A stretch of 64,000 bases of DNA from Thermoplasmata archaeon (GTDB lineage Archaea; Thermoplasmatota; Thermoplasmata; Methanomassiliicoccales; Methanomethylophilaceae), in the NCBI GenBank assembly GCA_015063285.1, contig SUST01000002.1:62001-126000 (forward strand), given 5' to 3'. Numbering within the stretch: position 1 is the stretch's first letter; the number at the start of each line of letters is the position of its first letter. A program made the position numbers and the translations under genes. The notes beneath the pieces were generated by a model. It was given only the letters and a program-made list of their open reading frames with translations, did not search any database and was not told where the DNA came from. This document shows, piece after piece, positions 11,650-46,855 of the stretch.

Positions 11650-12471
11650 TCAGATACCCTGCAACCTATCCAAAAGGGTGCCGATGTCGTCATATTTGGA
11701 GCAGCAATCGTTACAGACAGGGTCGTTAAAGGATGAACCAAAAGGATTGCCGCAGATCAGACAGACTCCGTCCTTCTCCTGATAATCCCTGTTCGACCAC
11801 CTCTTCCAGGACTTCATGCATTTGGTGCAGTAGATGGAATCGGAGATGGAAGCGGAGCATCTGATGCAATGAAATTTCAAAGGCAGTTCGACGATCGGTT
11901 CGGGTACCGACTCCGGTGACACCGTCACCGGTTCGTTGGGACGCGAGGTCTTGAAGGAGCTCTTGAAACCCTTCTTGAAACTCGATAGGAGCGATGGCTT
12001 GGGATCGTCGGTTCCGAAGATCGTACGGTAATCCCAATCTCCGTGCTGTCTCTCGCACATCTTCGAATATTTATCGAGCATATCGATGATGCGATCGTAA
12101 CAATCCACATCCAAGCCGTTGACGAAGAGTGACCCGAGTTCCTCGTTGTTCTCCTGAGAGAAGGTATACAGATTCATCGAGGAAAGAACCGCCTCATTCT
12201 CATTGACGATGACCTTTGCATGGAGATCCTTGATGAAACCGATGGAACAGTTGTCAAGGGATTTCAGCCAAGACATGGTGTCGTTCTTGACCTCCCACTT
12301 GCCATAGATGACGAAGATGCGAACCCCTTTGCCGTCAGCGAGCTTCAATAACCGGCGAAGACGGCTGTTGATATTCAGAGACGCGGTCACTATGAAGATG
12401 AATCTTTCGGATTCATCAACGATCCTGTTGATCTCGGCGGTTATCTCTGAGGTATCAAGAATGAATGCCAT
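11650..12471 (-). CDS. PLD-type protein with C-terminal zinc ribbons (273 aa)
   Basis: Residues 1-120 form one phospholipase-D-superfamily half: LHAKVIVNENEAVLSSMN near 83-100 carries the H-x-K and the downstream N of an HKD motif, followed by NNEELG. A low-complexity linker precedes two Cys pairs (CIRC...CTKC, about 205-220) and a second set (CLICGNPF ... CNDCCSKY, about 240-262), consistent with zinc ribbons. Proteins with one HKD half usually dimerise and many are nucleases, so a DNA- or RNA-cleaving role is plausible but not shown. It lies among accessory genes between two copies of a dispersed element. Confidence 0.75.
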   Translation of the reverse strand: MAFILDTSEITAEINRIVDESERFIFIVTASLNINSRLRRLLKLADGKGVRIFVIYGKWEVKNDTMSWLKSLDNCSIGFIKDLHAKVIVNENEAVLSSMNLYTFSQENNEELGSLFVNGLDVDCYDRIIDMLDKYSKMCERQHGDWDYRTIFGTDDPKPSLLSSFKKGFKSSFKTSRPNEPVTVSPESVPEPIVELPLKFHCIRCSASISDSIYCTKCMKSWKRWSNRDYQEKDGVCLICGNPFGSSFNDPVCNDCCSKYDDIGTLLDRLQGI

Positions 12472-12651
12472 AGAGGAAAATACGGATGAATGATAAAAAT
12501 CTCATTCATAAAAACCTTAGAAGTTAATTCTATGATAACTTAGATAAAATGAATGATTCGAACAAAATCGGACGATCTCTGAAGAAAACAGCGATTGAGA
12601 TGTTGACCTATATTCGTCTCAGTTTCAACAGAAACGAAAATAAGAAGTTGT

Positions 12652-12770
12652 GCGGGGAGCCTCCCCGCGAGGTAAATCGTTTCAGGTAACTGTCGTTCGT
12701 GTTCCGTGCGTTGCGGTTCGTTGTATCAATGCCGACCATCTGACCTCGGATTTGAAGGTCAGGACGCTCC
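12652..12770 (-). repeat. Dispersed ~110-bp element, copy 2
   Basis: The fullest copy together with copy 1: minus strand TTGATACAACGAACCGCAAC, CTGAAACGATTTACC, then the hairpin GCGGGGAG/CTCCCCGC (12652-12668). Here the element overlaps the last codons of the preceding minus-strand gene, whose C terminus (ATHGTRTTVT) is therefore encoded by the repeat. Confidence 0.6.
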
Positions 12771-13155
12771 TGAGACGTTCCACGTTCACCACCCTGAGCT
12801 GTGCGAAGACGCAGGTGTCGCAGCTTGCGTTGCCGCATTCTTTCGCATGGGGGCATTGATGATCGTGATTCTCCCAGCTGCCGTTGTCAAGCATCTCGTT
12901 CATCTGATACATGTGATTGACATTATCGATGACCATCTCGTCCTGGATCAGGTGAGGGTCAACCACCTGCGATTCTCTTGTGTAGATGGCCACGTTCGTA
13001 CATGACGAGATGGCCTTCGACACTTCCGGATCGTGGTCGGAGAGGTTGTCGATATAGTCGATCGCTTGCTTCGTCTTATCATAGATCCCAGGGATGAGGT
13101 TGATATCCGATCCCGGAGACCTGGCTTTCGCTGATCTGTTCTCTTTACCTTGCAT
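12682..13155 (-). CDS. Hypothetical protein with Cys/His cluster (157 aa)
   Basis: The start is taken at 13155 because AGGAGG lies four bases before that ATG; the open frame extends further upstream without signals. The sequence contains HDHQCPHAKECGNASCDTCVF near residues 100-120, a compact group likely to bind zinc. The last 25-30 residues lie inside the dispersed element copy 2, so the C terminus may have been replaced by repeat insertion. A TATA-like TTTTAATACT (minus strand, about 13290-13300) is a possible promoter. No family recognised. Confidence 0.6.
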   Translation of the reverse strand: MQGKENRSAKARSPGSDINLIPGIYDKTKQAIDYIDNLSDHDPEVSKAISSCTNVAIYTRESQVVDPHLIQDEMVIDNVNHMYQMNEMLDNGSWENHDHQCPHAKECGNASCDTCVFAQLRVVNVERLRSVLTFKSEVRWSALIQRTATHGTRTTVT

Positions 13156-13377
13156 GGCTCCTCCTATGAATGAGGTTCTTTCTCGATGCCTTACGGATGT
13201 TCGAAGGGCTTCGGTTGTCCGATGAGAATATGCACACGATTCCATGTGGTTTCGGCCCTTCTCCTAGGCGAGAGTATGATTTCTGCCGGAGTATTAAAAG
13301 CGTAGTGAAAGGTCGTAACTTTACTTTGCAGAATGATTCGAGCGGTTACGCAAGGGTTGATAAAAGGTTCGGAAGGG

Positions 13378-13707
13378 TCACATGCGTCCGGGCTGATCAT
13401 CGAAGTCCTGACCGGTGTAGGCCACCTGTATCACCCTGACGAGCTTCCTGTCCTCCTTGACGATGTAGAAGATGCAGTAGTTCCTCCTGTAGTTGAACTG
13501 CCTCTTCTCCACCGTACCCACGTGACGGGGGTCCTCGCGGACCATGTGGTCGTAGGGATACTCCTCGAGGGAGCCTATCGCCTCGTCGGTGTCCCTCAGG
13601 AACCTCTCGGCCGCCGAGACGTTCTTGAGGCGGTCCCTGATGTAGTCCCTTATCGATACGATATCGTTCTGGGCGTCCGCCGAGACCTCGACGCGGTAAT
13701 CGCTCAT
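13378..13707 (-). CDS. RelE/ParE-family toxin
   Basis: A 109-residue protein with the RelE/ParE pattern: an N-terminal AQNDIVSIRDYIRDRL helix, a central LEEYPYDH, then YRRNYCIFYIVKEDRKLVRVIQVAYTGQD. RelE toxins cleave mRNA on the ribosome and ParE toxins poison gyrase; the sequence alone does not separate them, though the YRxNYCIFYIV core with basic residues fits RelE better. The gene starts inside the upstream antitoxin ORF, the usual arrangement in these modules, but see the antitoxin entry for the abnormal overlap. Confidence 0.88.
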   Translation of the reverse strand: MSDYRVEVSADAQNDIVSIRDYIRDRLKNVSAAERFLRDTDEAIGSLEEYPYDHMVREDPRHVGTVEKRQFNYRRNYCIFYIVKEDRKLVRVIQVAYTGQDFDDQPGRM

Positions 13708-13942
13708 TCAGGAGCCTCTTGATGAACTGATGGGCGTCGGCGTTGCCTCCCTGTTCCGATCTCTGGTACCTCTCTTCCAATTCGATGTCGAGGAGGATGT
13801 CCTTGACCCTGTTGTAGTGATCGATGTTCATCAGGACCCTCGACCCGTAGCCGTTCTTCGTGATGAAGACCGGTTGGTTCTCTGAAAGGTCGAACATCTT
13901 GGAGGTGTCTCTCATCTCGGTGATGGGAACGATTTGGGTCAT
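13397..13942 (-). CDS. Phd/YefM-type antitoxin ORF running through toxin gene
   Basis: The first 79 residues look like a Phd/YefM antitoxin (MTQIVPITEMRDTSKMF, then ENQPVFITKNGYGSRVLMNIDHY, a DNA-binding Phd fold). An antitoxin of this type should stop at the toxin start; a TGA is there (ATGA at 13704-13707) but in a different frame. In its own frame the ORF continues about 100 codons out of phase through the toxin, giving an Arg/Gly-rich tail with no family features. A frameshift near the antitoxin end, real or technical, is the simplest reading; the functional antitoxin would be about 13704-13942. Confidence 0.7.
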   Translation of the reverse strand: MTQIVPITEMRDTSKMFDLSENQPVFITKNGYGSRVLMNIDHYNRVKDILLDIELEERYQRSEQGGNADAHQFIKRLLNERLPRRGLGGRPERYRIDKGLHQGPPQERLGGREVPEGHRRGDRLPRGVSLRPHGPRGPPSRGYGGEEAVQLQEELLHLLHRQGGQEARQGDTGGLHRSGLR

Positions 13943-13963
13943 GGATATAGGGATGCGGTCGGA

Positions 13964-13972
13964 GTATAAAAC
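13964..13972 (-). promoter_or_regulatory. TATA box of the toxin-antitoxin operon
   Basis: Minus-strand GTTTTATAC centred about 26 bases before the antitoxin ATG at 13942, with no room for a leader. This predicts a leaderless transcript. Confidence 0.6.
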
Positions 13973-14030
13973 ATTATTATGTACATTATCATGCTATGAT
14001 GGGATTGAAGGAGGCTTTCGCCCCCTTGTT

Positions 14031-14348
14031 TCATTGCTGTTTGGTATATTTCCTGCGTTGGTATTCCTCGACCGCCAATCTCCTGCGCTCCTCCTCGGAG
14101 AGGCCTTCATAGGAAGCGTCCTTGGGGAACCTCGATTCGTACTCCCTGAGGTTGCGCTCTATCTCCTCCTGCTCTATGTCGATGCCGTAGAGCGGCGTGG
14201 TGGCCTTGCGGAGGACCGCCTTGCCGTCCTCGACGGACCAGACGACGAGGTCGTCGCCCTTGGTGAGGTTCAGCATCTCGGCTAGAGGCCTGGGGACGGT
14301 GACCCTGCCGCTTCTGTCGTAGCCGACCTTGGATCCTATCCTGAGCAT
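14031..14348 (-). CDS. AbrB/SpoVT-type DNA-binding protein
   Basis: A 105-residue protein whose first 50 residues form a SpoVT-AbrB swapped-hairpin domain (KVGYDRSGRVTVPRPLAEMLNLTKGDDLVVW), followed by an acidic/basic helical tail of about 50 residues. Proteins of this type are transcription regulators or antitoxins. GAGGCGAT precedes the ATG. It lies nine bases after the 126-aa gene and so is probably co-transcribed with it. No obvious toxin partner is adjacent. Confidence 0.82.
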   Translation of the reverse strand: MLRIGSKVGYDRSGRVTVPRPLAEMLNLTKGDDLVVWSVEDGKAVLRKATTPLYGIDIEQEEIERNLREYESRFPKDASYEGLSEEERRRLAVEEYQRRKYTKQQ

Positions 14349-17070: not shown

Positions 17071-18570
17071 TCACTCGCTTACGGAGTAAGCTCTAGCCTG
17101 ACGGCTGATAAAATAACTGTCCGGCTCTGCGAAAGGTCCTGACATGACCAGATCGTTGTTCTGAGGAATGAATTCCAGATCGGATACTGCGAATGGGATG
17201 GACTTTGCAAAGTCCGTCAGGGTCTGGTCGTTGGCCTTGAGGCGCTCCTTGAACTGGAGGTACGTGGTCATCACGACGCTGTAATGCTGGGCGAAGCAGA
17301 CTATCTCGTTGTCCTGGATGTACCTGACGTAGTTGCCGATGGAGTCGTGGACTCCCTCGTACACTCTGAGGAGCTCCCCGCATTCGCTGCATCTTCTGAT
17401 CTTGTACTGCCTGTGGATGCCGATGCGCTTGATCTTGTTGCGGCCGATTCCTCCCCATTCCCTGAGACGGGTCTTTAGGAGAAGCTTCTTCTCGACCCAT
17501 TGATCCCAGTCGACGCCTGAGAGGTCGCCTACCATGCGGCCTTTGCCGTTGAACTCGTCCTCGTAGTCCTTGTCCTTGTACTTGCCTTTGCCTGACTTGA
17601 CTCCGGGGATCATGAGATTCATGGTCTCCTCGAACCAGTCGATGTCGTCGGGATCCCTCTCTGCTATGCCGAGGCCCATGTGGGTGAAGAGATAGGCCAG
17701 CGTGTGCCTTATGGAGTTGATCCTCTCATGGGGGTGGACCTTCTTTATTATCCAACCGGGATGTAGCCTCCTGAACTTGTTGGTCTTGATATGGCCATAG
17801 ATCAATGAATGGAAGTGAGGGGCGAGCTGCCACTCGGTCTGCTTCTGACGCCAGGGATGGAATAGGGTGACCCCTGCGTTGCCTCCGCATTCCTGGAGGT
17901 CGTCTACTATGATCCTCAGCATCTCATCGTATTCGTCCTTGGTCTGCATCATGGACTTGGCCCATTCCTGAGGTGGTGACACGACCCAATGGCCGATCTC
18001 GGGACGGTGACCGGACTGTTTCTCGATGAGCTTGGAGTATCTGAGTAACGGTTTCTCAGTCTCGACACCCTGTCTTAAGGCCTCATCGTTCATGCATTCC
18101 GGACAGTGGAGGGACCAGCAATGCACCCTCTTGCCTTTGATGAAGTGCTCCGGATGGTCGGGGCACATGCTGTATACTATGCCCCCTTCCCTAGAGCGTA
18201 TGAAGCCGCACCCCTTCTCCTGAGGGCGGTTAAAATCGTGGCCGGGCATGGTCCACTCGATGAACTCGTGGAACTCTGGACGGAAGAAGACGTTGTTGCC
18301 TGAGGGGTCTTGGAATACCGTCTTTCCTTCCTGAACCTGACGGTATGCTTCCTGAATCGGTATTCCGACTTGCATTGCAAGTCTAAAGTACTCTATGGCA
18401 GGATACTTGGAGGACTGTATGGGAAGGTTCATGACGTAGTCGACTACCTGATGCCTCTTGAGAGCAGCTTGTTCCGCCAGGCCTTGCCTTTCGGCTAGAG
18501 CGAAATTGGCCATAAGGGAGGAGAGCCTGCGCTGCTCTGCCTTGGAATCGTAGTCTTCGATGGTTCTCAT
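17071..18570 (-). CDS. rep: HUH-type rolling-circle replication initiator (Rep)
   Basis: The start at 18570 is chosen because the frame upstream is the GC-rich structured block with no RBS. The 499-residue product has, in order, a Cys/His cluster (C136, C151, C156, C159), HWVVSPP near 194-200, the metal-binding HUH motif PHFHSLIYG (H252, H254), and RHTLAYLFTHMG with a candidate catalytic Tyr at 293. A zinc ribbon beginning CSECG lies in the C-terminal third. I recall the same order (HxVxSPP, PHFH, YLxxH) in Rep proteins of haloarchaeal plasmids and viruses. Such enzymes nick one strand at the origin and stay attached through the Tyr. The gene lies beside a hairpin-rich candidate origin. Confidence 0.85.
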   Translation of the reverse strand: MRTIEDYDSKAEQRRLSSLMANFALAERQGLAEQAALKRHQVVDYVMNLPIQSSKYPAIEYFRLAMQVGIPIQEAYRQVQEGKTVFQDPSGNNVFFRPEFHEFIEWTMPGHDFNRPQEKGCGFIRSREGGIVYSMCPDHPEHFIKGKRVHCWSLHCPECMNDEALRQGVETEKPLLRYSKLIEKQSGHRPEIGHWVVSPPQEWAKSMMQTKDEYDEMLRIIVDDLQECGGNAGVTLFHPWRQKQTEWQLAPHFHSLIYGHIKTNKFRRLHPGWIIKKVHPHERINSIRHTLAYLFTHMGLGIAERDPDDIDWFEETMNLMIPGVKSGKGKYKDKDYEDEFNGKGRMVGDLSGVDWDQWVEKKLLLKTRLREWGGIGRNKIKRIGIHRQYKIRRCSECGELLRVYEGVHDSIGNYVRYIQDNEIVCFAQHYSVVMTTYLQFKERLKANDQTLTDFAKSIPFAVSDLEFIPQNNDLVMSGPFAEPDSYFISRQARAYSVSE

Positions 18571-18850
18571 AGTATACTGCAATGAAGGCTCTGAGGGCCT
18601 TCGGTCTTGATCGTGAATCGTGCCCCTGCTGGGAAGCGGCGACTGACGTCGCCGATTGGAAGGCGGCCGGCGGTCGCCTGGGCTCGCGCCCCAACGGCGC
18701 CCGCTGCGGCCTGTTTGAGTCGCCCGACCCACTCGGGCGATGCCCTCGGGGTCTGCGCCGTCCGCTGACGCGTCCGTCGGGCGACGTCGATTTGGATGCC
18801 CCGTGGTCCCCGTGCGGTGCGGGGGCGGAGGCCCGCAGGGGCACCACGGT
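18571..18850. other. Candidate replication origin: GC-rich hairpin block
   Basis: 280 bases between rep and the next gene, far more GC-rich than either side. Hairpins: CGGCGAC-TGAC-GTCGCCG (18637-18654); GGGC-TCGC-GCCC (18680-18691); a perfect 8-bp stem TCGCCCGA/TCGGGCGA (18720-18740); and a long stem at 18801-18849 (CCGTGGT, CCCC and TGCGG paired with their complements, two single-base bulges). This matches what double-strand and single-strand origins of rolling-circle replicons look like. The open frames across it are a result of base composition, not evidence of a gene. Confidence 0.65.
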
Positions 18851-19180
18851 TCAGTGCTGGTCATCCCGGGTGGGATGCGTGAGGTCTACGATATGGAGCT
18901 TCGGTCCGTTGACGTACGCTCCATAGTGGGAGATCCTGTCGAGGTAGCCGGCGCGGCTGATGCTGGCGGCCATCATCCTCTCCCTCTCGATGTCCTTCAG
19001 CATCTGCACCACGGGATGGTCCTCGAGTCCGAGGAACCTGTACGGGAACAGCCAATCGTAGAACCGTTTGCTGTCCTTCGGCTCCGACAATGCGATCTCC
19101 GGAGGGAGGGGGATGCTTGAGGCCTCCCTCATGGAGAGGATCCTGTCCAGTTCCTGGTCGGTCGATATGTTGGCGCTCAT
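18851..19180 (-). CDS. Hypothetical protein (109 aa), coupled to the ATPase
   Basis: The ATG at 19178-19180 overlaps the ATPase stop (ATGA), so this frame rather than the longer open frame starting at 19711 is taken. The product is soluble and helix-rich (QMLKDIERERMMAASISRAG) with no known motif. The gene ends at the edge of the candidate origin block. Its place after the ATPase suggests a role in DNA handling or assembly, but this is inference. Confidence 0.65.
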   Translation of the reverse strand: MSANISTDQELDRILSMREASSIPLPPEIALSEPKDSKRFYDWLFPYRFLGLEDHPVVQMLKDIERERMMAASISRAGYLDRISHYGAYVNGPKLHIVDLTHPTRDDQH

Positions 19181-19797
19181 ATCACCACATCCCTGAACAT
19201 GTGGCTGTTGGCGTAGCTCCACCAATCCACCTTGGGGATCGCCACGCAATCCTCGAACCTGGGGAAGTAGCACCATGCCCTCCTGTCCACATCCGGGTGC
19301 ATGGCGTTCGCGAGATCGATCGCGTAGTTGGCCGAGGCCTGGGATGCCCTGAACTCGGGACGCTCGAACTGGAGATCCTCCTGGTGCATCCACTTGTTCA
19401 TGATGATCGCATCCTGCGACCTCAGGAACGCTATGTCCGTGTCCGCGATGTTCTGCGTGGTGATCGCGATGATGATGGACTTGTGCGATATGATCGACAG
19501 CCAACCCTGTATGTCTCCCCTCTTTGCGGAGCCTCTGGACTGGAAGATCCTGTTGACATCCTCGACGACCACTATCGACCCCACCGGGACGTCGCTGGTC
19601 TGGGAGACCAGATGGTATCCCGGGAAGATCGAGACGTCGAACTTCAAGGTGTCCAGCAGGTACTTCGGACGGTCGGGGTGGCAGTACGCCAGCAGACTGT
19701 GGAGGCTGCATGACTTCCCCTGCTTCCCGGAGCCGACGGCGATTATCACGCCGTGCTCCATGGCGCTGATGTAGTCGATGGCCGCGCTATCAGTCAT
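19177..19797 (-). CDS. P-loop ATPase of Zot/HerA type
   Basis: Walker A GSGKQGKS lies near residues 22-29, Walker B GSIVVVEDVNRIF near 74-86, and IIIAITTQN a further 30 residues on resembles the sensor strand of FtsK-HerA and Zot-like ATPases. Such proteins pump viral DNA into particles or drive extrusion of filamentous virus. At 206 residues it is short, a single ATPase core without a clear membrane segment. ATG at 19797 is nine bases from GGGAGG; ATG at 19803 is also possible. Genes overlap on both sides. The exact subfamily (packaging ATPase or inovirus-type Zot) cannot be settled by eye. Confidence 0.78.
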   Translation of the reverse strand: MTDSAAIDYISAMEHGVIIAVGSGKQGKSCSLHSLLAYCHPDRPKYLLDTLKFDVSIFPGYHLVSQTSDVPVGSIVVVEDVNRIFQSRGSAKRGDIQGWLSIISHKSIIIAITTQNIADTDIAFLRSQDAIIMNKWMHQEDLQFERPEFRASQASANYAIDLANAMHPDVDRRAWCYFPRFEDCVAIPKVDWWSYANSHMFRDVVI

Positions 19798-19930
19798 CGT
19801 CATCGTCCTCCCGGTCGTCGCATGTCCTCTGGTTGGCCTTGCAGGCCTGGTTTATGTACCATATCCGCTTGCGCTCCGGGTTGCCGTGAACCCAGAACGG
19901 AGGGGCGGAGCCGTCATTCCTTGTCGTCAT
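19790..19930 (-). CDS. Small acidic-tailed protein (46 aa)
   Basis: A very good binding site (GGAGGTGATAACG) precedes the ATG at 19930, and the frame overlaps the genes before and after it, as do its neighbours. The product has a WVHGNPERKRIWYINQACKANQ core and ends in five Asp residues. It could bind a basic partner or DNA through its core. Too short to assign to a family. Confidence 0.6.
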   Translation of the reverse strand: MTTRNDGSAPPFWVHGNPERKRIWYINQACKANQRTCDDREDDDDD

Positions 19931-21268: not shown

Positions 21269-21519
21269 CTTGCATACCTCCTTCTTGGGGTGGCGATGAT
21301 GTAGCCTGCCAGCAGGATTCCTGCGATCAGGAGTATAGATGGCCATACCTCTGCGATGAACTCGTCAAGGGTCATCCTGTTCTCGAGCATGGCCATGTAG
21401 GCGTCCATCTGCGTCATGGAGTCCTCCATGGAGCTTGCGTTATGGAGGTCGACAATGGTGAAGATGCCACCTATCGCCGTTCCGACTGCCGAGAGTATGG
21501 GTAGGAACCATACCATCAT
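21265..21519 (-). CDS. 84-aa two-TM protein
   Basis: ATG 21519 overlaps the stop of the 313-aa gene (ATGA), which favours it over the in-frame GTG at 21531. Hydrophobic helices lie near residues 3-22 and 60-76, separated by a Met- and acid-rich amphipathic stretch (SSMEDSMTQMDAYMAMLENRM). The C terminus is basic (TPRRRYAR). Probably an assembly or minor structural protein of the element. Confidence 0.65.
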   Translation of the reverse strand: MMVWFLPILSAVGTAIGGIFTIVDLHNASSMEDSMTQMDAYMAMLENRMTLDEFIAEVWPSILLIAGILLAGYIIATPRRRYAR

Positions 21520-22457
21520 ATCATCCCCCACATGCCTAGACGTCTGATCCTGACGATGTACGCTATCGCTATGACCAGCACGAAGATGATGGCCAGCACC
21601 GCGGGGTTGGAAAGCAGTGAGACTATGTCCCTGAGCATGTCCGGGAGGTCCTGATAGGACGCTTCCTCCCAGATGGCGTAGACGGTCTTGGAGTAGACGA
21701 TGTTCAGCGGATCCGATGAGTTCACGCTGTCCGCGTTGGCCGCTATCAGAGGGAAGTCGTCGGAGACATCGTTCGGCTGGTTATCCCCATTCACCGTGCT
21801 CCAGCCCTTGAAGGAGAAGCCCTCTTTGGTTGGGTATGCGGATGTGGTGTCGAAGAAGTGCATGCCGATGTCGTCTGAGGCCAATACTTGCCAGTAGTAT
21901 GTCTGGCAGACCGAACCTCCCAGGCTGTCGAAGGTCAGGGCGTAGGTATGATGAACCTGGTCCTGCACGATGACTGATCCGTTCCACTGTACGTCCAGAT
22001 GGATCTTGATTAGGAACGTCGATACCTCGGTATCGAACACGTTAGGGTAGGTGCAGCGGAAGTGGATCCAGTAGTCGCCGTGGGTGTCCTCGGATACCTG
22101 CTGGAGGGCAGGGGAGATGGCTATCGTGAGCTTCGCCGATTCGTAGTTGCCGTATGCCGATGTGACGTTCCATGAGATCCATGACGGGAGGCAGTGGGAT
22201 TCCACGTAGGAATAGCCTGTGTTCCCGGAGTCCGCACGATTGATCAGATAGGCCAGGAAGAACTTGGCCGATTCCGATTCATGGTCGTAGACCACGTACT
22301 GGGTAGGGTCGTCGGACTTCAGATTGGTCATGGTTATCATGAAGGTCTCATCCGCTGCCGGAGGCTGTACATAGTTCACATCCTGGGCATCGACCACAGG
22401 GATGGCGAGGGTGAGGGCCAGCATGACGATGGCCATCGTTGCGATAGCTGACCTCAT
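21516..22457 (-). CDS. Exported protein with InlB-type repeat and C-terminal anchor
   Basis: The start at 22457 gives a signal peptide (MRSAIATMAIVMLALTLAIP...VDA). The 313-residue product has an extracellular beta-rich region, one InlB-like repeat at about 195-265 (YALTFDSLGGSV ... EGFSFKGWS ... TVYAIW), and a C-terminal transmembrane helix (about 284-303) ending in RIRRLGMWGMI. The topology is that of a virion or cell-surface spike. The frame upstream of 22457 has no RBS. The start overlaps the stop of the gene at 22454. Confidence 0.75.
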   Translation of the reverse strand: MRSAIATMAIVMLALTLAIPVVDAQDVNYVQPPAADETFMITMTNLKSDDPTQYVVYDHESESAKFFLAYLINRADSGNTGYSYVESHCLPSWISWNVTSAYGNYESAKLTIAISPALQQVSEDTHGDYWIHFRCTYPNVFDTEVSTFLIKIHLDVQWNGSVIVQDQVHHTYALTFDSLGGSVCQTYYWQVLASDDIGMHFFDTTSAYPTKEGFSFKGWSTVNGDNQPNDVSDDFPLIAANADSVNSSDPLNIVYSKTVYAIWEEASYQDLPDMLRDIVSLLSNPAVLAIIFVLVIAIAYIVRIRRLGMWGMI

Positions 22458-22840
22458 CTCTGACCCCTCCACTGCCAATCGTCGTATCCGTACCTGCTGT
22501 CGTCGTACCTCATCCTGTCCTTGGGAGGTAAGATGAGACGGACCACCACGTAGAGGATCAGGGCCGCGAATGTGAGTCCGATCAGTGTGGCCGTCGTATC
22601 CTCCGAGAGTCCGGTGGCGTCCGCTATAGCGGATACCCCGGAACGCCAGGTGGAATAGATCACTGCGACTATCCCTCCGGTGCCTCCGATCTTCAGCACG
22701 TTGCCTATCTTCCATGAAGAGACCCATGAGCTGAATCCCTTCAGACCCGTTCCGATCGCCTCGCCTGCCTTGAAACCGACCTTGGCTCCTCCCGATCTGG
22801 CTGCGGATGAGAATACCTTGAATATAGATGTCCAGGACAT
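22454..22840 (-). CDS. Membrane protein with two hydrophobic segments (128 aa)
   Basis: A Ser/Gly/Lys-rich N terminus (about residues 1-45) is followed by hydrophobic segments at about 49-64 and 85-104, then an Arg/Asp/Tyr-rich tail (RMRYDDSRYGYDDWQWRGQR). GATGATACC precedes the ATG. It lies four bases after the 611-aa spike-like gene. A membrane-embedded structural role is plausible; no family recognised. Confidence 0.65.
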   Translation of the reverse strand: MSWTSIFKVFSSAARSGGAKVGFKAGEAIGTGLKGFSSWVSSWKIGNVLKIGGTGGIVAVIYSTWRSGVSAIADATGLSEDTTATLIGLTFAALILYVVVRLILPPKDRMRYDDSRYGYDDWQWRGQR

Positions 22841-22844
22841 GGTA

Positions 22845-24680
22845 TCATCCCACGGTGATAGTGTAGGAGCCGTCGTCGCTGTATGTGATAACAGGCATCA
22901 CGATGCAGGAGGCGGTAGGTGCGCTGGTGAAAGCGATTGTGGTCTCCCAGACTGCATAGAGCGTCGTGGTCCCATTGTAGGAGACCGCTATCGATGCTCC
23001 GGGCTGGTATGACGGCGTCTTCGCTGTGCTCGATGTCGCCCATCCGAGGAACACGCTTCCCGACTTGGTCGGAACGGTGTTCGGAATGGTGAACGTATGG
23101 TTGCCTGTAGATGTTCCTGTGTAGTTCTGGTTACTTGGTGCACCGCTACCTCCGTTGGCGTTGAAGTTCAGATGACAGGTGTATGAGACCTGACTCCAGA
23201 CCGCGTACAGTGTGGTGGTTCCGTTGTAGGCGACCGCGATGGATCCTCCGGGCTGGTAAGCCGCTGAGGTGGCGTTGTTCGATGTCGCCCAACCGAGGAA
23301 TGTGTAACCCGATCTGGTCGGAGATGTCGACGGGATCGTGAACGTGTGGTTACTGGTGGATGTTCCCGTATAGTTCAGATTACCGGGAGCACCTGACCCT
23401 CCGTTGGCGTTGAAGTTCAGATAACAGGTGTACGTGTTCTGCTGCCAGACCGCATACAGCGTGGTGGTTCCGTAGCTGAAGGAGTACGAGCCGCCTGCCT
23501 GATATGCCGCTGAGGTGGCGTTGTTCGATGTCGCCCAGCCTTTGAAGGTGTAGCCCGATCTGGTCGGTACTGTTGAGGACAGGGTGACGGACTTCGTGGT
23601 CGATGATCCCGAGCCTCCGTTGGTGTTGCCCGGAGCTCCGGATCCTCCGTTCGCGTTGTATGCTATCGTGAAATAGTACGTAGTGGAAGTCGAACTTGTC
23701 ATCTGTTCCGCTGGATAGTACTTCCCGCCCGAAGCCGCAGTCATGGAGTCGGATCCGCCTCCGGGATAGGTTAAGCTGGTTGCCTTGACCATGTTGTAAC
23801 AGCTGGAGGAATACGAAGTCGTGGTGACCATTCCGGAGGATTGGGATCCCGAGGTGGTCGACGACGCTCCGTACCAATCGACATCGATCGTGGTGCCTGA
23901 CTGGACTGTGTAGGTCTTGCTGGAGGATGTGACATTGGAATTATCCACACCCAGGAGCTTGAACGATGCCCAGTTCCCTTTGTACACGGTTATCGTGATG
24001 TTGGTGACGTTCTGTTCCCAGACTGCATAGAGCGTTTTGGTGCTCTTGTATCCGACGCTTATGGTGCCACCGGGCTGGTATGATGCCGATGTGGCTGAAC
24101 TGGAAGTTGCCCATCCTTTGAACGTGTAACCGGATTTCGTCGGGGTTGTCGAGGAGATCGTGAACGTGTGGTTGCTCGTGGATGTGCCTGAGTAGGACTG
24201 GTCGCTGGGTGCTCCGGATCCGCCGTTGGCATTGTACTTCAGGTAGCATGTGTACTGGTTGGACGAGGATGCCGCCGTGACGGCGAAGGAGACTTCGAAA
24301 GAATCGTCCTCCGTGGTCCAGTCCGAGAACAGGATGTAGTACGTGCGTGCAGTGACGGAAGAGGATGCCTGAAGGGTCAGACCAGAGGAGTTCCAAGTGA
24401 CCGTGATGCCTGAGACGGCGTTGCCGTCGCTGACATTGGACGAGGTACCGACCCCGATCGAGATGTCATGCTGATAGAAGTACCTGTTATCGTAGGTAGA
24501 TCTAGCTGCCATAGAAGGACATGCCTGAGCCCATGTGTATGTGGAGCTGGAACCCTGCTGGACGGTCATGCTCGCGGATCCGTTGTCCAGAGCATCGGAC
24601 TCCTCCGATACGGCGAGGGCTACGCCCGCGAAGGAGATGGCTACGATCAGAAGGGCCAGGCCCATAATCTTGTGGTTCAT
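22845..24680 (-). CDS. Exported spike-like protein, new N-domain plus InlB repeats
   Basis: ATG 24680 follows GGTGATAACC; the in-frame GTG at 24689 is part of that site. The 611-residue product has a signal peptide (IMGLALLIVAISFAGVALA), an N-terminal domain of about 110 residues (LDNGSASMTV ... YTWAQACPSM ... FSDWTTEDDSFEVSFAV) that also occurs twice in the neighbouring 727-aa protein, then four InlB-type repeats of about 75-83 residues, and a short end module (FTSAPTASCIVMP, TYSDDGS) also found inside the 727-aa protein. There is no C-terminal membrane helix, so it is either released or held by partners. Likely host-attachment or surface protein of the element. Confidence 0.78.
   Translation of the reverse strand: MNHKIMGLALLIVAISFAGVALAVSEESDALDNGSASMTVQQGSSSTYTWAQACPSMAARSTYDNRYFYQHDISIGVGTSSNVSDGNAVSGITVTWNSSGLTLQASSSVTARTYYILFSDWTTEDDSFEVSFAVTAASSSNQYTCYLKYNANGGSGAPSDQSYSGTSTSNHTFTISSTTPTKSGYTFKGWATSSSATSASYQPGGTISVGYKSTKTLYAVWEQNVTNITITVYKGNWASFKLLGVDNSNVTSSSKTYTVQSGTTIDVDWYGASSTTSGSQSSGMVTTTSYSSSCYNMVKATSLTYPGGGSDSMTAASGGKYYPAEQMTSSTSTTYYFTIAYNANGGSGAPGNTNGGSGSSTTKSVTLSSTVPTRSGYTFKGWATSNNATSAAYQAGGSYSFSYGTTTLYAVWQQNTYTCYLNFNANGGSGAPGNLNYTGTSTSNHTFTIPSTSPTRSGYTFLGWATSNNATSAAYQPGGSIAVAYNGTTTLYAVWSQVSYTCHLNFNANGGSGAPSNQNYTGTSTGNHTFTIPNTVPTKSGSVFLGWATSSTAKTPSYQPGASIAVSYNGTTTLYAVWETTIAFTSAPTASCIVMPVITYSDDGSYTITVG
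23089..23660 (-). repeat. In-frame tandem repeats of about 249 bp
   Basis: The stretch TCCGTTGGCGTTGAAGTTCA occurs at 23151 and again at 23400, 249 bases (83 codons) apart, within long blocks of near identity that encode successive InlB-type repeats; a third, more diverged copy follows to the right. High DNA identity makes gain or loss of a repeat by recombination likely. Confidence 0.7.
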
Positions 24681-24698
24681 GGTTATCACCCGGAGGTT

Positions 24699-24714
24699 AG
24701 GGGCCGAGGCCCCT
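24699..24714 (-). terminator. Intergenic hairpin AGGGGCC-GA-GGCCCCT
   Basis: Lies between the stop of the 727-aa gene and the start of the 611-aa gene. A 7-bp stem with no T run suggests a processing site or partial terminator that sets the ratio of the two spike-like proteins. Confidence 0.5.
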
Positions 24715-24719
24715 TGGTT

Positions 24720-26903
24720 TCAGTAGTAGCCTCCGTACTGGAGCGCCTTTCTTCTCCTGTAGATGACGAATGCCACTATGGCGATGATGAGAATTATCGC
24801 CGCAATGATGTACATCAGGTACTCGGAGAGGATATGCTTCATCAGAGGCACATCGACGACGATTGTACCTGTGACCCTGTCGGATCCGTGCTCGTTGACC
24901 CCGGTGCAGGAATATGTGTACGTTCCATTCTCGGAATAAGTATGGAAGACGGTAAATCCCTGTCCGGTGGTTCCGTCTCCGAAATCCCAGAGAACGGTGT
25001 CGGCGTCCTCGCCTGTCCAGACGAACTTGAATGTCCTCGTTCCGTCGGAGTAGACTGTAGTGGAGTCGTCTCCGGGGGTCACGGGTGCGGGTGTTGTGCT
25101 TCCGCCCGAGGTGTTACCTCCAGAGGTGTTTCCGCCGCTGGTAGAGCCTCCGCTGGTGTTGCCACCGGTGCCTGAGGATCCTCCGGATGTCGTCTCGGTC
25201 ACTGAGAACACGATGGTGAACAGGTCATCCTCTGTGGTCCAGTCGAAGAAGGAGATGAAGTAGTCTCCGGGTTCGACGGCCGAGGTCGCCGCTATGGTGA
25301 GACCTGTGGAGGCCATGTTCACAGTGATCCCGGGGACCTCGGCTCCGTCTGCGGGCCTGAAGGTGTCCCCGATACCGAGCGAGAACTCGTGGGTGTAGAA
25401 AGCAGCATCATCGAAGGTGGATGTCTCCAGCATCGAGGGGCATGCCTGCTCCCAGGTGTATGTCGCTGTCGATCCTTTTACGACCGTGAGCTGGGCTGTT
25501 CCATTGTCGTATGCTGCCTCTGTCGCATCGAGTCCGCCCTCTCCGGGGAGGAACAATGATGCGAGTGGCCCCATGAATGCTCCCAGCGATCCGAGGAGGG
25601 AGAAGGATCCGTCATCGTCGTAGGTGTATACGGGGATGACGACGCATGCGGCCGTGGGCACACTTGTGAATGCGGCGGTCTTCTCGACGTTGAACGTGAC
25701 GTTCTGCGACTTGACCTGTCCTCCTGCTGAGGTCGCGGTCAGAGTGAACGAGACCGAAGTGACGGAGATGTCATTGGGGATGGTTCCCGTCACGACTCCC
25801 TGGCTGAGGACCAGCCAATCGTAATCCGATGTCAGCGACCAGGTGCATCCGGCGGAGATGTTCACAGTCGGGCTGTATGTGTAGTTCTTTCCGGAATAGT
25901 AGATCCCGGTCGGTGCCTGTGATGTGATGGTCATGGTCTGCTCCGCGACATGGAAGACGATTTTCTTGGTCGCGGTCTGGGAAGGTCCGGCGGTGGTGAA
26001 TCCCTTGAGGGTTATGGTGAAGTCACCGAACTCCGTGGGGGTTCCGCTGATCTTTCCGTTGCTGAGGGTGACCCCTGCGGGGAGGTTCCCGGACTTTCCG
26101 AAGGTCATGTTCACGTTGCCTGCGAGATCAATATCGGTCATCGCGGAGTTCTGGGTGAGGTTGTACGATGTGCTCACTGAATTCGCGATCTGAGCGACAG
26201 GATAGACATTGAAGCTTACCGTCTGCACAGCCTGCTGTCCTCCGGGCGTGGTGGCCTTGATGGAGTAGTAGTACGTGGTCATCGAGGTCACGCTGGGGGC
26301 TGTTCCCGATAAGGTGCCGTTGCTCAGGGTGAGCCAAGATGCGTTGGTCTTTCCGGTAACTGTCGTGGTAGTGAATGTGGAGGATGCCACGTTGACTGTA
26401 GGTCTGTATGTGACGGTGGATCCCGTCAGGGCATCGACCGCGGAGGGGGATGTATAGTTCACGTTGCCGGAACCGGAGCCTGAACCGGATCCTGCCGCTG
26501 TGACCGCGAAGGATACCTCGAAGATGTCGTCCTCGGTGGTCCAGTCGAAGAACTTGAGGTAGTATGTGCCCGTGGCTACAGAAGAGGTCGCCGCCAGGCT
26601 GAGTCCGGATGCGCTCCACGAGATCGTAATACCGCTGACCCTTGCGCCGTCCATCGGACCCTGGCTGGTGCCGACTCCGTATGAGAGGTTGTGGGTGTAG
26701 AACGGCTGACTGTCATACGTCGATGTGGCCGCCAGACCGGGACAGGCCTGGGCCCATGTGTAACTGGATGTCCCTCCCTGGGCAACCGTCATGCTCGCCG
26801 ATCCGTTGTCCAGAGCGTCGGTATCCTCTGTGAAGAGGACCGCGCATCCTCCGAACAGGGCGAGGACGGAGACCAGGGTGATCATGAATAGCTTGTTCTG
26901 CAT
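24720..26903 (-). CDS. Membrane-anchored multidomain spike-like protein (727 aa)
   Basis: Signal peptide (MQNKLFMITLVSVLALFGG); N-domain copy 1 at about 32-135 (LDNGSASMTV ... WAQACPGL ... FFDWTTEDDIFEV); Ig/cadherin-like repeats of the putative-Ig (He_PIG) type at about 150-405; the module FTSVPTAACVVIP, YDDDGS near 410-432; N-domain copy 2 at about 460-565 (AYDNGTAQLTV ... WEQACPSM ... FFDWTTEDDLF); a Gly/Ser/Thr-rich linker; a PKD domain (about 605-680, VLWDFGDGTT ... YSENGTYTYSC); and a transmembrane helix near 692-714 followed by RRRKALQYGGYY. The plan suits a virion spike or surface receptor-binding protein. The N-domain is not one I recognise. Confidence 0.8.
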   Translation of the reverse strand: MQNKLFMITLVSVLALFGGCAVLFTEDTDALDNGSASMTVAQGGTSSYTWAQACPGLAATSTYDSQPFYTHNLSYGVGTSQGPMDGARVSGITISWSASGLSLAATSSVATGTYYLKFFDWTTEDDIFEVSFAVTAAGSGSGSGSGNVNYTSPSAVDALTGSTVTYRPTVNVASSTFTTTTVTGKTNASWLTLSNGTLSGTAPSVTSMTTYYYSIKATTPGGQQAVQTVSFNVYPVAQIANSVSTSYNLTQNSAMTDIDLAGNVNMTFGKSGNLPAGVTLSNGKISGTPTEFGDFTITLKGFTTAGPSQTATKKIVFHVAEQTMTITSQAPTGIYYSGKNYTYSPTVNISAGCTWSLTSDYDWLVLSQGVVTGTIPNDISVTSVSFTLTATSAGGQVKSQNVTFNVEKTAAFTSVPTAACVVIPVYTYDDDGSFSLLGSLGAFMGPLASLFLPGEGGLDATEAAYDNGTAQLTVVKGSTATYTWEQACPSMLETSTFDDAAFYTHEFSLGIGDTFRPADGAEVPGITVNMASTGLTIAATSAVEPGDYFISFFDWTTEDDLFTIVFSVTETTSGGSSGTGGNTSGGSTSGGNTSGGNTSGGSTTPAPVTPGDDSTTVYSDGTRTFKFVWTGEDADTVLWDFGDGTTGQGFTVFHTYSENGTYTYSCTGVNEHGSDRVTGTIVVDVPLMKHILSEYLMYIIAAIILIIAIVAFVIYRRRKALQYGGYY

Positions 26904-28077: not shown

Positions 28078-28293
28078 TCACATCCCGTTCTCCCAGACCT
28101 TGATCACCGTGGGCTTGTTGGAATACCTGGAGTCCTTGCTGAGCCTGATACGCGTGGTGTCTCCCATCTCGAGATATGACATGCAGGCGTGCTCGGCATC
28201 CTCCTGCGTGGAGTAGCGGAACCTCTTCTTTCTGAGTTCTCCGTCGCTCCACAGGAACCAGCGGTCCACGATGTACGGGTGCTCGGAGATCAC
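28078..28293 (-). CDS. Hypothetical protein (71 aa), GTG start
   Basis: The GTG at 28291-28293 overlaps the stop of the upstream gene (GTGA), the pattern seen throughout this operon, so it is chosen over the longer frame. Sequence VISEHPYIVDRWFLWSDGEL with many basic residues; no known motif. Followed by a GC-rich gap of about 200 bases before the 319-aa gene. Confidence 0.55.
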   Translation of the reverse strand: MISEHPYIVDRWFLWSDGELRKKRFRYSTQEDAEHACMSYLEMGDTTRIRLSKDSRYSNKPTVIKVWENGM

Positions 28294-28688
28294 TGTCCTG
28301 TCCTGAACTTGGCCATCATCTTCTGGCCAGTCGCGACGTCTGCTCTGTTCACGCTGGTGTTGAGGTCGACCCCGTCCATGATCTGGGCGAATTTGACGGC
28401 GAAGTCGGCGAAGTTCTTCCACCATTTGCCGTCCTTGGGGAAGTTGACGAACTTCCCGTCGATCATCGTGACCAGGGAAGGGCGCTCGTCCTTGTACTGT
28501 CCGGTCGACTCGTCGTAGTCGCTGACGATCTTCAGGCCGACGTAGACCCCGCCCTCGTTGAAGGTGGAGACCTCCTTCTTGATCGTCTCGTTGCCGGTCT
28601 CGATGTTGAGCTGTCCCATCTGGGCCCTGATCTCTGCTGCGTTCACTGCTCCGTTTCCTGCTGTTGCTTTTCCTGCTGTTTCTGCCAT
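28290..28688 (-). CDS. Hypothetical protein (132 aa), first gene of element operon
   Basis: GGGAGGAAAG precedes the ATG. The product is soluble: an Ala/Gly-rich N terminus, a central part (GGVYVGLKIVSDYDESTG, then PSLVTMIDGKFVNFPKDGKWW) and a helical end. First-gene position in rolling-circle viruses often holds an early or DNA-binding protein, but nothing in the sequence shows this here. The upstream leader carries element copy 4 (28723-28756) and the TGTCCACC repeats. Confidence 0.62.
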   Translation of the reverse strand: MAETAGKATAGNGAVNAAEIRAQMGQLNIETGNETIKKEVSTFNEGGVYVGLKIVSDYDESTGQYKDERPSLVTMIDGKFVNFPKDGKWWKNFADFAVKFAQIMDGVDLNTSVNRADVATGQKMMAKFRTGQ

Positions 28689-36062: not shown

Positions 36063-36494
36063 TACTAAGGATTATATATGGCCTGGAGATACACGAATCT
36101 GCGCGATGAGACCCATTGCGTGGTTGGCATCTGATGCCGATCGATCAAGTTCGAAAGTTCGAACTGACGCTCTTGGAGGTCTTCCCAAGCTTTAAGTACT
36201 TGGTGAGATTACAGGGGGTTGCGCGACTCAATAATCGCGTGGCCAGTGCATTGCACGATGGTCAAGTTCGAATCATATCGAGGTGAAAGCCGACTGGTAA
36301 GAGTTAAATACTTCTTGCGAGTACGGAAATTTCGCGTCTGTCTATAAGACAGCGATTCAAATCGAATGTAACATGCACCCGAACAGAGGTCCTGTCTCGG
36401 GGAAGTGGTGTAGGGCCCCGTAAACGGAGGATGAGAGCGGATAAGCCCAGTGATCACCGATCATACGAAACCTGGACGTGTGCTAGATCATACG
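36063..36494 (+). promoter_or_regulatory. 23S rRNA leader with tandem promoters and possible small RNA
   Basis: 432 bases without a convincing protein gene. TATA-like boxes: GGATTATATATGG (36069-36081), GCTTTAAGTACTT (36189-36201) and GAGTTAAATACTT (36302-36314). Two or three tandem promoters are usual for rRNA. The stretch 36103-36172 has GATGA, CTGATG and a final CTGA between GCG/CGC flanks, resembling an archaeal C/D box RNA, but I could not place its guides. Inverted repeats include AGTTCGAA/TTCGAACT (about 36154-36171) and GTGCA/TGCAC near 36245. Confidence 0.55.

Positions 36495-36502
<8 letters not shown>
36482..36502 (+). other. 23S precursor processing stem, 5' arm
   Basis: GCTAGATCA plus the following bases to GGC pair with 39398-39422 (TGATCTAGC at the far end), giving a long stem that brackets the 23S gene. 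Archaeal pre-rRNA is cut at bulge-helix-bulge structures in such stems. Confidence 0.7.
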
Positions 36503-39410
<2,908 letters not shown>

Positions 39411-39600
39411 GTGTGATCTAGCAGTTAAACAGGTTTCGTATGAACTTAATCTCATCTTCCAATACACATCTCTTTTCATTATTCATCTTCAATAGTTGAT
39501 ATTATCTCATCCTCTTGTGGTTTTTCAAGCCTTTAATTTGGCTTTCTGACAACTATAGTTTTTATTCCTATACCAGCCTCTTTTTTCTGGAGGTCCAGTT

Positions 39601-46402: not shown

Positions 46403-46684
46403 TTTCTCATTTGGTTATATCATCCAAGAGGATATAGTTGCTTTTATATTGAGTTAATCAATAAAATAGTGTACATAAAAGTATATTTTAGTGGCAAAAT
46501 AGGTATGTTTTTATATGGTTAACCAAACCATCCACAATTAAATTTAAATATGAATTCAAAAAAACTATTAAAATGAATAATTTTACAAAAAAATATCAGG
46601 AAAACGATCGATTTTTTTGATTGAAATATTGACCGCATCAACATTACTTGGATGGATGGATGCTCTATGCATCGTCTTGCTACA

Positions 46685-46750
46685 AAGACTCATCCAACTC
46701 TAGACAACTAAGACTCATCCAACTCTAGACAACTAAGACTCATCCAACTG
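46685..46750. repeat. 25-bp tandem repeat, 2.6 copies
   Basis: Unit AAGACTCATCCAACTCTAGACAACT starts at 46685, 46710 and 46735, the third copy breaking off after CATCCAACT. The copies are identical. It may be a transcription-factor site array or a slipped-strand minisatellite. Confidence 0.85.
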
Positions 46751-46855
46751 ATGTGATTACGATCCATGACGATTGCAATAAATACGGGCAGATGATGTGA
46801 GATGCATTGCAATAGCATCGTGTTCTATTGTATGTCAAATCTCTTCTATGCTTAC

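Follow-up and report, generated by a model that had tools for sequence, protein, structure and literature searches.

A conserved hairpin block beside an HUH-type rep gene is a candidate composite rolling-circle origin in Methanomethylophilaceae

Comparison of related elements indicates that the non-coding block at positions 18571–18850 (minus strand) of the window, meaning the whole 64,000-nucleotide stretch analyzed here, genuinely contains folded hairpins, which are conserved as a set and travel with the adjacent rep gene. We consider it probable, on balance, that the block is a composite rolling-circle origin of virus-like or plasmid-like elements integrated in Methanomethylophilaceae genomes, in which one hairpin (stem B) resembles a double-strand origin (dso) and the other (stem A) a single-strand origin (sso).

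Results

Composition and folding of the block

The candidate origin region is a non-coding gap bounded by the start of rep at 18570 and by a reading frame for a 109-aa protein (18851–19180, minus strand). The latter overlaps the P-loop ATPase gene of the element operon (19177–19803, minus strand; recognized by its GSGKQGKS motif and unmatched in Pfam), so the gap amid overlapping genes that drew attention to this locus is real. The block is also richer in GC than both flanking genes, as originally noted (0.711, versus 0.541 for rep and 0.597 for the gene on the other side), and GC is as high in only 0.16% of 280-nt windows. Its folding was unmatched among 456 sampled 280-nt stretches of the window. 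Relative to dinucleotide shuffles, its DNA folding z-score was −2.48, with 1 of 100 shuffles as good, and its RNA folding z-scores were −2.12 and −1.88. A local hairpin z-score scan did not single the block out, as it is not the top hairpin of its own locus. The folding excess over shuffles is modest and the window alone makes a weak case, far weaker than the one from comparison with relatives. Hairpins arising by chance in a GC-rich spacer would fit those modest scores and the outcome of the scan, but are contradicted by the conservation, compensatory changes and linkage to rep described below, and we regard this explanation as extremely improbable. A decayed reading frame was likewise rejected: the rep frame stays open through the block in the window, but that open frame lacks conservation, with stops or frame-breaking indels in relatives.

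Copies of the block and linkage to rep

A DNA search of the source genome (1.79 Mb, 33 contigs) returned five further copies of the block, and ~10 others came from relatives; almost every copy adjoins a gene for a homologous HUH Rep. In four of the five (L007–L010), the gene order is retained: membrane protein, ATPase, small gene, then block and rep. Relatives of Rep occur in 32 of 102 Methanomethylophilaceae genomes, and matches from the block search, like those from a stem A covariance model, almost exclusively adjoin rep; the block is thus kept with rep across many elements, as the original prediction implied. Three matches depart from this rule: a decayed element whose rep is broken, one weak match of the model, and one weak block-like DNA match in G012, which sits in an unrelated gene region and was dismissed as chance. 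In the decayed copy, pairs of stem A are lost, and two genes separate the block from the rep remnant 1.8 kb away. Stems A and B were not recognizable in Rep clades L060 and L062 or in the distant L072–L074, which counts against an origin role. Two further sets of matches were dismissed as chance: 104 matches of a stem B pattern in IMG/VR, where the returned loci encode no Rep relative; and class-wide matches of that pattern outside the family.

The location of stems A and B relative to rep depends on the Rep clade: they precede the gene in one clade (upstream-type elements) and follow it in another (downstream-type elements). They are on the rep strand in all intact copies. Their occurrence on either side of rep, always on its strand, argues against a simple rep leader. 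Downstream-type elements keep rep, the block and a homologue of the 132-aa gene found at the operon start in the window (28290–28688, minus strand), to which the genes upstream of rep in these elements are weakly similar. The ATPase, membrane and small genes were absent from the fetched stretches of downstream-type elements, which suggests that the block belongs to the replication module rather than with virion-type genes. A role as packaging signal for element virions, which could be proposed from the conserved ATPase and membrane protein adjoining the block in upstream-type elements, is very improbable given that the block is retained in downstream-type elements whose fetched stretches lack these genes.

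Stem anatomy

Read 5' to 3' on the rep strand, the block comprises stem A, AAACAGG, stem B (helices P1 and P2) and GYCYTTCC, followed in upstream-type elements only by stem C. In the window, all of these lie on the minus strand. Stem A (18719–18785) spans ~72 nt in relatives, where its 8-bp outer stem (18778–18785 with 18719–18726 in the window) is invariant except for two T.G wobbles. Its arm 1 carries a GNNA loop (GTCA at 18766–18769) and tandem G.A mismatches. Stem B (18665–18711) is a bulged hairpin made of P1 (18707–18711 with 18665–18669) and P2 (18696–18704 with 18670–18678), and the GCCTTCC at its 3' foot (18658–18664) is conserved in sequence. Stem C (CGGCGAC/GTCGCCG, 18637–18654) lies between stem B and the rep start, and its sequence varies while pairing is kept. 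When the DNA of three relatives is folded freely, the minimum-energy structure is the conserved one with three stems.

The window copy departs from this pattern in that arm 2 of stem A is eroded. The perfect 8-bp inverted repeat highlighted in the original prediction is present (18720–18727/18733–18740) and competes with the conserved outer stem A for the same arm (−10.3 versus −9.3 kcal/mol). The second hairpin highlighted there (18801–18849, no strand assigned) also exists, with 17-nt arms (18801–18817/18833–18849) and two mismatches, and it has no counterpart in the aligned relatives. Both are specific to the window and are not the conserved hairpins; the block looks bipartite and not like a group of equivalent hairpins.

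Compensatory changes and wobble pairs

Compensatory changes across related elements, a check set beforehand, were found in stems A, B and C. Six pairs (11 cells) changed in stem A and 11 pairs (16 cells) in stems B and C, with none of 500 shuffles as high in either case. Relatedness is not taken into account by these shuffles, and few genera are represented among the sequences, which means that the counts are not phylogenetically independent. One P2 position of stem B shows G-C, C-G, A-T and T-A. Covariation across the alignments is therefore strong evidence, although it is not independent.

Wobble pairs, which bear on whether the block acts as RNA or DNA, differ between the two stems: stem A has four G.T cells and zero A.C, and stem B has zero G.T among 22 hairpins. 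The pattern in stem A, together with its GNRA-like loops, hints at RNA and would speak against a DNA origin. The main rival explanation is that the block is a structured non-coding RNA or mRNA element produced from the rep strand and regulating rep or copy number. It would account for the tandem G.A mismatches of stem A as well as for the constant location of the block on the transcribed strand. We nonetheless judge it unlikely: stem B is free of G.T; the block can precede or follow rep, and in the decayed element 1.8 kb separate it from the rep remnant, leaving no fixed leader or 3' end; and a search with Rfam covariance models gave chance-level matches only.

Stems A and B against the Rep tree

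DNA identity of stem A between the two Rep clades is 63%–92% (88%–92% in the best-matched sets), while the Reps of those clades share only 32%–41% of residues and are separated in the Rep tree with 100/100 support. The clade split appeared in 0% of bootstrap trees of stem A, a short sequence whose tree has weak branches of its own. Stem B is ~79% identical within clades and 69% between them, the latter being close to the 62% seen for shuffled sequence; it keeps its shape, and its sequence follows the Rep clade. Stem A would be accounted for by some factor that all elements have in common, and stem B by Rep itself. Stem B thus resembles a dso in being a Rep-specific hairpin beside its cognate rep, and stem A an sso in being structured, bound in orientation, independent of Rep type and near the dso-like stem.

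That stem B follows the Rep clade, and that rep of upstream-type elements is immediately preceded by stem C, could also be read as Rep autocontrol, with stems B and C serving as a DNA operator or transcription attenuator and stem A as an unrelated conserved element. This is improbable, since stems A and B follow rep in the other clade, where direct control of rep initiation is impossible.

The Rep protein and neighboring genes

The rep gene (17071–18570, minus strand) encodes a 499-aa protein with zinc-binding Cys/His residues and the motifs HWVVSPP, PHFHSLIYG and LAYLFTHMG. The family motifs are HWVVSPP, PHFHxLxYG and AAYLxTHMGLG, comprising an HUH motif and a catalytic Tyr motif, and H252, H254 and Y293 are invariant in 19 sequences. 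The structure model is confident (pLDDT 88), and its viral matches include microvirus replication initiators (prob 0.99–1.0, E ~1e-3 or lower); PDB matches were not significant, with the FBNYV Rep nuclease among those listed. Motifs and model together support the identification of Rep as an HUH-type rolling-circle initiator, in agreement with the original prediction. Rep had no match in Pfam, PHROGs, or phage or plasmid collections, and no relative in IMG/VR. Its closest named relative comes from a goat-rumen Methanomethylophilaceae MAG, the sole match in the genome contig search.

Three rep genes (L045, L046 and L054, of G057, G060 and G014) contain one in-frame TAG each. Methanomassiliicoccales can read TAG as pyrrolysine, and these genes may be read through rather than broken. 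Other features near rep were also recorded. A second conserved non-coding motif, GGATCACYKC..GCA..ATCCGCAAAGG, lies just downstream of rep in L049, L051, L052, L054 and L055, and part of it occurs twice in G053. In other Rep clades (L052, L056–L059), rep is directly preceded by a long GC-rich hairpin with bulges, unrelated in sequence and perhaps their own origin; in L052 it is joined to a different Rep type.

Elsewhere in the window, positions 21516–26903 encode large proteins that look secreted, have membrane segments at the C-terminus and contain Listeria-Bacteroides-type repeats (weak match to PF09479 in Pfam); they are candidate virion spikes of the element. Beyond rep, a PLD-like nuclease and small RelE/PHD-like and AbrB-like genes (assigned by eye) at 11650–14348 look like exchangeable cargo. 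A 43-nt inverted repeat at 36461–39443 flanks the archaeal LSU rRNA gene as its usual processing stem, and a 25-nt repeat occurs in three tandem copies at 46682–46756.

Cargo breakpoints and element ends

Three pairs of elements (G055/G056-C31, G000-C6/G092 and G056-C37/G064) match at 93%–98% over the block and as much of rep as is sequenced. In each pair, the 3' foot of stem B is the exact point at which similarity ends and the cargo becomes different. Cargo past the block is common to elements with different Reps, as in G092 and G056-C37 (83% over 135 aa) and in G056-C31 and G064 (75% over 69 aa). Such breakpoints fit a transfer of strands at the nick site of an origin, but the same result would be expected if homologous recombination had taken place inside the block. 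Nicking had been expected in the hairpin loops; the shared cargo breakpoints, the sole positional hint, come from downstream-type elements and point instead to the 3' foot of stem B, equivalent in the window to the step between 18665 and 18664.

Downstream-type units are 2.9–3.1 kb long and sharply delimited, with one end at the foot of stem B, as would suit an HUH transposon of the IS91 or Helitron kind that terminates in the block. The opposite end resembles the 3' part of a tRNA gene and is repeated nearby, as in site-specific integration, and this left end makes integration of that kind likelier than a 3-kb transposon. An IS91- or Helitron-like element would be expected to end at the hairpin, at insertion junctions on both sides, and to have no site-specific attachment site; here cargo is shared among elements beyond the hairpin, and the block is internal in upstream-type elements. 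We disfavor the transposon explanation as very doubtful indeed. The tRNA-like sequence, ATCAxGGAGTGGGGACCATCC, was seen at the left end of downstream-type elements (L220 end, G000:C6) and is repeated in G092:C57 (L225 at 123–162, 9564 and 18481); such repeats are likely attachment sites. For the element in the window itself, a search for direct repeats that might mark attachment sites turned up no convincing pair. A search for circular contigs by end overlap gave none, which counts against the origin reading.

Discussion

Under the favored reading of the block as a composite rolling-circle origin, we infer nicking, excision, circular forms and separate roles for stems A and B. The element would first be excised and circularized. 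Rep would then recognize stem B and nick the rep strand close to, or directly at, the 3' foot of that stem, between 18665 and 18664 at the conserved GYCYTTCC; Tyr293 would hold the 5' end, and the 3' OH would prime leading-strand synthesis. The displaced strand would end with stem A, then stem B, and stem A would fold on it as a single-strand origin recognized by host factors. Recognition by host factors would explain why stem A is shared across divergent Reps and found at variable sites, in one orientation directly before stem B. The original prediction of a rolling-circle origin therefore probably named the right kind of element, its particular hairpins and loop nicking being unsupported. 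A fuller version can be put forward only tentatively, in which stem A is an archaeal single-strand origin module recognized by host factors and both shared and swapped among elements with very divergent HUH Reps, in fixed orientation and on either side of rep, and stem B is the Rep-specific double-strand origin, its 3' foot being the cargo-swap junction.

The order of stem A followed by stem B fits the usual layout of rolling-circle plasmids, with the sso just upstream of the dso (PMC5037232, PMC9569500). Lagging-strand initiation in these plasmids does not involve Rep (PMC5714925, PMC5037232), and bacterial sso such as ssoA are, like stem A, structured, independent of Rep and common to different Reps (PMC5037232, PMC5714925). 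However, stem A has no demonstrated sequence relation to them, and the archaeal host has other priming enzymes. Archaeal dso of haloarchaeal and methanogen plasmids (motif TCTCGGCnnnCnnnG, pGT5-like, M. mazei pC2A) are similarly located next to or inside rep, and a layout of dso plus sso was proposed there, in the methanogen plasmid paper with an sso from alignments only (PMC9569500). In contrast to those plasmids, their nick motif TCTCGGC has no match near this rep, and the Rep family here is without database match. The recently described origin of the betapleolipovirus SNJ2, whose structure was shown by mutagenesis to be needed, is likewise a DNA element with two hairpin parts that adjoins the rep gene of an archaeal virus in a provirus context (PMC13107129). 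Its Rep-Arvir family initiator is not an HUH enzyme, unlike the HUH-type Rep described here, and its element is short (a 22-nt hairpin plus an inverted repeat) and downstream of rep, whereas the parts found here are longer and lie on either side. Pleolipovirus-like proviruses in Methanomassiliicoccales share the host order and are also small virus-like integrated elements, but the spike and membrane genes here are unmatched to pleolipoviruses, and the available portion of that report describes no such origin (PMC10919331).

Initiation of leading and lagging strands in archaeal rolling-circle replication is poorly known, and the block provides an alignable origin candidate with a predicted nick point. 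This candidate comes from a gut and rumen methanogen family, and in it the Rep-specific part is set apart from the part common across Reps. A composite origin could explain how cargo is swapped while the replication module is retained, and the block could be a starting point for shuttle vectors in an archaeal order that is hard to manipulate.
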